A stretch of DNA of 64,000 nt. Source: Atopobiaceae bacterium. Its GTDB lineage: Bacteria > Actinomycetota > Coriobacteriia > Coriobacteriales > Atopobiaceae. Below the pieces are notes generated by a model that did no database searches, was not told where the DNA came from, and saw only the letters and a program-made list of their open reading frames with translations. Made by a program: the position numbers and the translations under genes. The stretch lies in contig JAGAVX010000050.1 of NCBI GenBank assembly GCA_017941705.1, forward strand, positions 1 through 64,000. Direction: 5' to 3'. Positions 8,943 to 62,959 of the stretch are shown here, piece by piece. Numbering within the stretch: the stretch's first letter is position 1; the number at the start of each line of letters is the position of its first letter.

Positions 8943-8956
8943 CGCAACACGTCCCC

Positions 8957-9034
8957 GTGGCACACTTGTTCCCCGGGAGTTCCTGTGCCATCAGTCTCGA
9001 TGGCGCAGGAACTCCCGGGGAACAAGTGTGCCAC
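8957..9034. repeat. Long inverted repeat between purF-like gene and GH1 gene
   Basis: Arms 8957-8991 and 9000-9034, 35 bp each, match except for one T/C change that stays pairable as G-U. The loop is 8 nt. The stem contains TTCCCCGGGAGTTCC. It could end transcription, but there is no T tract and it is far longer than a usual terminator. Confidence 0.85.
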
Positions 9035-9145
9035 GCTGGCCGTCTCCGTGACGCATTGCAACGTCTGGCGTATAGCCTCTATGCAGGAGCTTGCTTTCAC
9101 TCGGTATGATGGGGGACAGCCGTTTCATACCGAAAGGAGATGCTC

Positions 9146-19642: not shown

Positions 19643-19710
19643 GTGTGGTCTGGGGGACACGCCCCCAGACCACAGAGATGTGGTGCAGGGGCGTGTCCCC
19701 GAGACCACAC
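19643..19710. repeat. GGGGGACACGCCCCC-type palindrome cluster
   Basis: The 278-bp gap 19536-19813 contains TGTGGTCTGGGGG, loop ACACG, CCCCCAGACCACA (19644-19656 with 19662-19674). A further TGTGGT...GGGGCGTGTCCCC...ACCACA half follows and can pair with the first arm instead. The same words recur at 27271-27375. Confidence 0.75.
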
Positions 19711-20146: not shown

Positions 20147-20268
20147 GCCGACGCCCTCCCGGCAGGGGTGCCCTTGGGCGGCCTCTGTAGCCGAATCCAT
20201 GCCTCAACCAATGAACGATCGCGGCGAAAGCGTAGGCCCAAGGGCACCCCTGCCGGGAGGGCGTCGGC
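20147..20268. repeat. Conserved-core palindrome, copy A
   Basis: Perfect 33-bp arms at 20147-20179 and 20236-20268 enclose a 56-nt core (20180-20235). The core ends (CTCTGTAGCCGAAT at the left, GCGGCGAAAGCGT at the right) and the inner 9 bp of the arms (CCCTTGGGC) recur in inverted orientation at 62822-62959. The outer 24 bp of the arms are unique to this copy. The core contains GCGAAAGC, a GNRA-type tetraloop candidate. It fills most of the 296-bp gap before addB. Confidence 0.9.
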
Positions 20269-27270: not shown

Positions 27271-27375
27271 TGTGTGGTGCCGGGGACACGCCCCTAGCCA
27301 ACAGAAGTGTGGTCCGGGGGACACGCCCCTGCACCACACTTCTGTTGGCTAGGGGCGTGTCCCCGGCACCACACA
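27271..27375. repeat. Perfect 43-bp inverted repeat after addA
   Basis: Arms 27271-27313 and 27333-27375 are perfect reverse complements. The 19-nt centre itself repeats the GGGGGACACGCCCC motif of the arms. It starts 8 bp after the addA stop. Far larger than a terminator and without a T tract. Confidence 0.9.
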
Positions 27376-62821: not shown

Positions 62822-62959
62822 GAGGCCCGGCATGCGCCCCGCGCCTTCGGGGTCCCTTGGGCTCACGCTTTCGCCGCAGTCGCATGCGGGCAGTGGCTGG
62901 AATTCGGCTACAGAGGTCGCCCAAGGGACCCCGAAGGCGCGGGGCGCATGCCGGGCCTC
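62822..62959. repeat. Conserved-core palindrome, copy B
   Basis: Perfect 41-bp arms at 62822-62862 and 62919-62959 enclose a 56-nt core (62863-62918). Read on the minus strand the core shares 39 of 56 positions with copy A at 20180-20235, with identical ends CCTCTGTAGCCGAAT and GCGGCGAAAGCGT. The innermost 9 bp of the arms are the same too (CCCTTGGGC), while the outer 32 bp differ completely from copy A. It occupies much of the 402-bp gap 62695-63096. Confidence 0.9.

Follow-up and report, generated by a model that had tools for sequence, protein, structure and literature searches.

A multicopy palindromic repeat with a conserved core and locus-specific, self-matching arms, probably of fold-back origin, in an Atopobiaceae genome

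Two long palindromes, here named copies A and B, lie in a 64-kb stretch of Atopobiaceae DNA (the window, i.e., the whole stretch analysed) and belong to a multicopy family. We consider it probable (roughly 0.6) that they are a small, non-coding, probably mobile palindromic repeat, whose outer arms are local DNA copied by fold-back and then kept matched by template switching. The inherited unit would be the core with some 16 bp to either side of it. Fold-back DNA synthesis, i.e., template switching at the hairpin, would generate the outer arms as an inverse copy of local DNA, and repeated template switching, known as quasi-palindrome correction, would keep both arms matched while their sequence drifts. 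The copying was presumably done by replication and not by reverse transcription, while the core ends may be either the recognition site of some mobilising activity or the seed of the fold-back.

The first-pass annotation, made from the letters alone, described A and B as palindromes with a conserved core and perfect locus-specific arms. These palindromes are real: the arms are complementary at 33 of 33 positions in A and 41 of 41 in B, the loop measures 56 nt in each, and the two copies have opposite orientations (Table 1). Among the perfect inverted repeats of the window with a loop below 400, they rank second and third in length. A comparison of the arms confirmed that the inner 9 bp are common to A and B and that the outer parts differ. 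The tip sequence GCGAAAGC, which had been called GNRA-like, is replaced by GCAAAAGC or GCTAAAGC in two copies, and a GNRA loop is therefore not a feature of the family.

Table 1. Position and parts of the two copies of the palindromic repeat in the 64-kb window
Feature	Position	Strand	Basis
Copy A, whole palindromic element	20147..20268	+	inverted-repeat and core analysis
Copy A, 5' arm, 33 bp; similar to other copies over the roughly 16 bp adjoining the core, locus-specific elsewhere	20147..20179	+	
Copy A, 56-nt core; conserved ends GGCCTCTGTAGCCGAAT / GCGGCGAAAGCGTAG, variable centre	20180..20235	+	
Copy A, 3' arm, fully complementary to the 5' arm	20236..20268	+	
Copy B, whole palindromic element, between divergent genes	62822..62959	-	
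Copy B, 5' arm, 41 bp	62919..62959	-	
Copy B, 56-nt core GACCTCTGTAGCCGAATTCC...TGCGGCGAAAGCGTGA	62863..62918	-	
Copy B, 3' arm, fully complementary to the 5' arm	62822..62862	-	

The family extends well beyond the window. A search of the source genome (G000) with the 5' end of the core alone returned ten sites and reversed-pattern controls returned none, whereas the 3' end of the core retrieved the same ten, a degenerate end beside an existing copy, a weak match and a half copy without partner arm. Core ends located by sequence have their partner within about 60 nt, the exceptions being this half copy and two weak matches to the 3' end. In the ten main copies the arms measure 22-45 bp and contain 0-4 mismatches, and the copies are intergenic, as far as simple gene calls show. 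A covariance-model search, as suggested in the first-pass annotation, added two further, older copies in the source genome as well as copies in other species of the genus. With 12 full copies and one broken (half) copy in this genome and others in its relatives, the outcome that no further copies exist, which was to have refuted the element, did not materialise; a chance origin of A and B is ruled out because more copies were found and the reversed controls gave none. Covariance-model searches favour copies with intact arms, and the sequence-only searches of the source genome gave ten intact copies against one half copy. A broader covariance model reaches other genera of the family, where inspection was convincing for two, g16 and g4; its weakest match (G164) looks like chance. 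Single core-pattern matches in relatives and on a viral contig turned out on inspection to have no relation to the element. The relatives were sampled at one genome per species. The GyrB of the source genome groups with assemblies of Atopobiaceae from the rumen, for instance RUG14646 and UBA1367, and shares 90% identity with that of Tractidigestivibacter. As the source genome is a 171-contig assembly, fold-back chimeras from assembly or amplification could be invoked, yet many genomes that were assembled separately show this core architecture, e.g., G032 with four copies (6 contigs, 99% completeness), which makes an artefact barely credible.

Identity among the ten main copies is 94 and 92% at the two core ends, compared to 46% for the core centre. 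Identity between the arms of different copies falls from 0.81 at positions 1-9 to 0.45 at positions 10-16 and 0.34 at positions 17-24, the shuffled null being 0.35; past 16 bp from the core the similarity between copies is thus at chance level. Within each copy, pairing is 93% at positions 10-16 and 98% at positions 17-22, while pairing across copies amounts to 45 and 36%, respectively. At positions 10-16 the divergence between copies equals that of the unconstrained centre and pairing is nevertheless kept, hence both arms have diverged together. Arms decaying as neutral sequence, the second outcome named beforehand as refuting, are not observed either, each copy pairing with itself at 93-98%. 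The same data bear on an ordinary REP/MITE-type repeat, with arms inherited along with the element and simply diverged. Such a repeat would likewise be small, intergenic, palindromic and amplified in one species, but the arms lack similarity between copies past 16 bp, and independent divergence would have ruined the pairing within copies; we regard this explanation as highly improbable.

Perfect pairing despite a complete change of sequence had been attributed in the first-pass annotation either to strong selection on the stem or to a mechanism that rebuilds one arm from the other. Under selection on an RNA stem, wobbles would be expected to outnumber A.C mismatches. The 710 arm positions of 26 elements, with boundaries set (as in our element listing) by a score penalising every mismatch, comprise 692 Watson-Crick pairs, 6 G.U, 5 A.C and 7 other combinations. 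When 19 elements are aligned, there is no G.U in 304 arm cells and a two-sided change in 14 of 16 pairs. Orthologous loci show how these changes arise. Between G014 and the source genome, 11 of the first 16 arm positions at gyrB-gyrA differ, and all 11 changes are two-sided. A second orthologous locus has four two-sided and two one-sided changes, three of the four being unreachable by a single G.U step; the third pair (G005/G010 at gyrB) has one two-sided versus three one-sided changes, two of which are wobbles. The arms thus carry the two-sided changes without wobble bias that characterise template-switch arm correction. Since an overall wobble excess is lacking and changes are two-sided, arm copying at the DNA level fits better than selection on an RNA stem. 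In the analysis as a whole, several tests and cut-offs were picked after part of the data had been seen.

At 14 of 15 informative loci a gene with its stop codon within 40 nt lies antisense to the core, on the 3' side of the core (binomial p 0.001; one count per locus, one convergent locus, flanked by a gene on either side, excluded, ORFs scored by a simple method of our own and low-scoring ones set aside by eye). In these gene-end loci the core lies 8-38 nt from the stop codon. The rule does not hold for five of the ten burst copies (among them B), which are located between divergent genes. This placement, together with the conserved internal-loop sequence and the strong covariation, would suit a structured RNA, or a protein-binding RNA hairpin, that is expressed at each locus and whose arms are kept complementary by selection for base pairing. 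We nonetheless consider this unlikely: G.U pairs are not commoner than A.C mismatches, many of the two-sided changes are transversions, impossible via one wobble step, and the core is oriented antisense to the adjacent gene or, in those five burst copies, located between divergent genes. In addition, no Rfam family reaches its gathering score over the window, a permissive Rfam scan of six element loci gave sub-threshold matches alone over the element, and Rfam and the literature searched yielded no matching family. The earlier suggestion of a structured RNA finds no support as far as selection on its stem is taken to cause the perfect pairing. An intrinsic terminator is not indicated either, as no U-rich tract follows the hairpin in the sense direction of the gene in 24 gene-end copies (mean T 0.26 versus 0.21 in the background). 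Two side observations concern neighbouring sequence. Beside the copy at the site named C1, L321 contains at 1162-1400 a sub-threshold match to the T-box leader (41 bits, gathering score 93). In L332 and L335, from two genomes of genus g4, the element is situated within a long ORF that runs into it, apparently in frame as judged by eye.

The origin of the arms can be read most directly at older loci. At gyrB-gyrA, the flank past one arm repeats, in inverted and decayed form, the 3' end of gyrB on the other side, as is visible by eye. Inverted homology past the arms, evaluated against left/right pairings taken from different loci, has p < 0.01 in 17 elements at eight loci and extends up to about 100 nt outwards. 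Because the flanks past the arm are decayed inverted copies of the 3' end of the adjacent gene at several of these older loci, the older arms are local inverted duplications. In the same test, the ten burst copies (A and B included) show no inverted homology past the arms (all p > 0.3), and the relatives are too diverged to tell which arm of a burst copy is native. From the mutual dissimilarity of the burst-copy outer arms, those of A and B included, we infer a local origin for them too, so that burst copies would also have received their outer arms through fold-back copying. For A, B and a copy at tyrS, a local origin is further suggested by DNA searches of the source genome with these loci, which elsewhere matched only the core and the nearby arm; their outer arms do not appear to be copied from elsewhere, with the 24-nt outer arm of A at the edge of detection.

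Alternatively, the core may insert into the middle of pre-existing perfect palindromes in intergenic regions, the arms being the target. Core-less perfect palindromes do exist at the intergenic position of an element locus in the relatives G017 (27 bp), G010 (34 bp) and G005 (32 bp), and another is found at the tyrS site of G014. However, the A, B and tyrS sites have no long palindrome in most relatives, the 10-16 bp beside the core are alike between copies and would then have to be part of the element, and what is found inverted at older copies is the 3' end of the gene itself. Insertion into palindromes is accordingly an unlikely account. Of the causes proposed beforehand for the perfect pairing, the rebuilding of one arm from the other by copying is borne out by the two-sided changes without wobble bias and by the decayed inverted flank copies at older loci, whereas selection on the stem, in its RNA form, is not. 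The related proposal of a replication-derived palindrome is well supported as far as arm rebuilding by copying is concerned, with replication as the presumed copying route. The window holds other palindromes. One at 27271-27375 has 43-bp perfect arms around a 19-nt loop and contains GGGGACACGCCCC, with a shorter relative at 19644-19700. A third palindrome family is represented at 8956-9035 (30-bp arms, CGTGGCACACTTG...) and has a copy on G000:C92 (L158 301-388) with a different inner arm, this copy being likewise nearly perfect; judging from this family, arm maintenance may be general in this genome.

Template switching accounts for the arms, but not for the conservation of the core ends or the spread of the copies. 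Wherever the A, B and tyrS sites could be read in relatives, a full core is missing from them, in support of a lineage-specific burst of ten copies. The C1 site (L028) holds, by eye, a short core-like sequence in the opposite orientation in G002, G013 and G015, which could represent a separate insertion or a spacer inversion. As in MITEs, there are multiple copies at sites empty in relatives (three sites read); terminal inverted repeats common to the copies are restricted to the inner 16 bp or so of the arms, short of what defines a MITE. No obvious direct repeat, as a target-site duplication would leave, was seen by eye in the 25 nt on either side of the ten copies. The features of REP/RAYT systems are likewise lacking: the hairpin foot bears no GTAG or comparable tag, and there is no cognate transposase gene flanked by the repeat in the source genome. 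Most copies of G000 and some of G011 contain TGTAGCC, located within the tip of the core rather than at the foot; it is absent from G014 and from the two older G000 copies (GACCTCTGAGC). The REP-linked Y1 transposase was rejected as mobiliser: the 3.3-kb locus of the single PF01797 gene of the source genome has other repeats and no copy of the element, and G014, G006 and G007 carry elements without any PF01797 match. That single Y1 transposase gene, in L259 (G000:C123), adjoins short tandem repeats of the type GCCTGTCCCCGACGCACGCCGCCGTGCGCTGGT. The earlier idea of a miniature mobile element is supported by the species-specific ten-copy burst and by the readable sites without full core, while an enzyme search confined to Y1 transposases yielded none to go with it.

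According to published work, template switching can create and maintain perfect stems (PMC8794818) and can homogenise arms and invert spacers (PMC8604942). The element resembles the quasi-palindromes and template-switch hairpins described in the consulted sections (PMC8794818, PMC8604942, PMC7202029), where arms are homogenised and new perfect stems are copied from the nascent or complementary strand; those accounts treat individual hairpins, whereas here a multicopy family shares a conserved core. With the REPs linked to Y1 transposases, as described in PMC3733652 and PMC2817692, it has in common that short palindromes occupy several intergenic sites per genome. Unlike these REPs, it has about 12 copies, is conserved in its tip instead of its stem, carries no constant GTAG tag across species and does not flank a transposase gene. 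Nematomorph mitochondria likewise have perfect coding palindromes with long arms, and their authors (PMC6649704) consider repeat conversion and template switching, not function, in connection with them; those palindromes are mitochondrial and lie inside genes, and the portion of the paper used here mentions no shared core.

A more far-reaching version of our reading, which we put forward tentatively and as rather doubtful, is that a mobile element builds its arms at each insertion by fold-back copying of the target flank, leaving an inverted instead of a direct target duplication, with a preferred orientation just behind stop codons. If such arm building at insertion were borne out, it would be a mode of DNA insertion that is not known to us from described elements. 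Strong covariation is usually taken as proof of a functional RNA stem. The present repeat is a natural family with complete two-sided arm turnover without wobble bias, and it provides a test of how much apparent covariation is due to DNA template switching.
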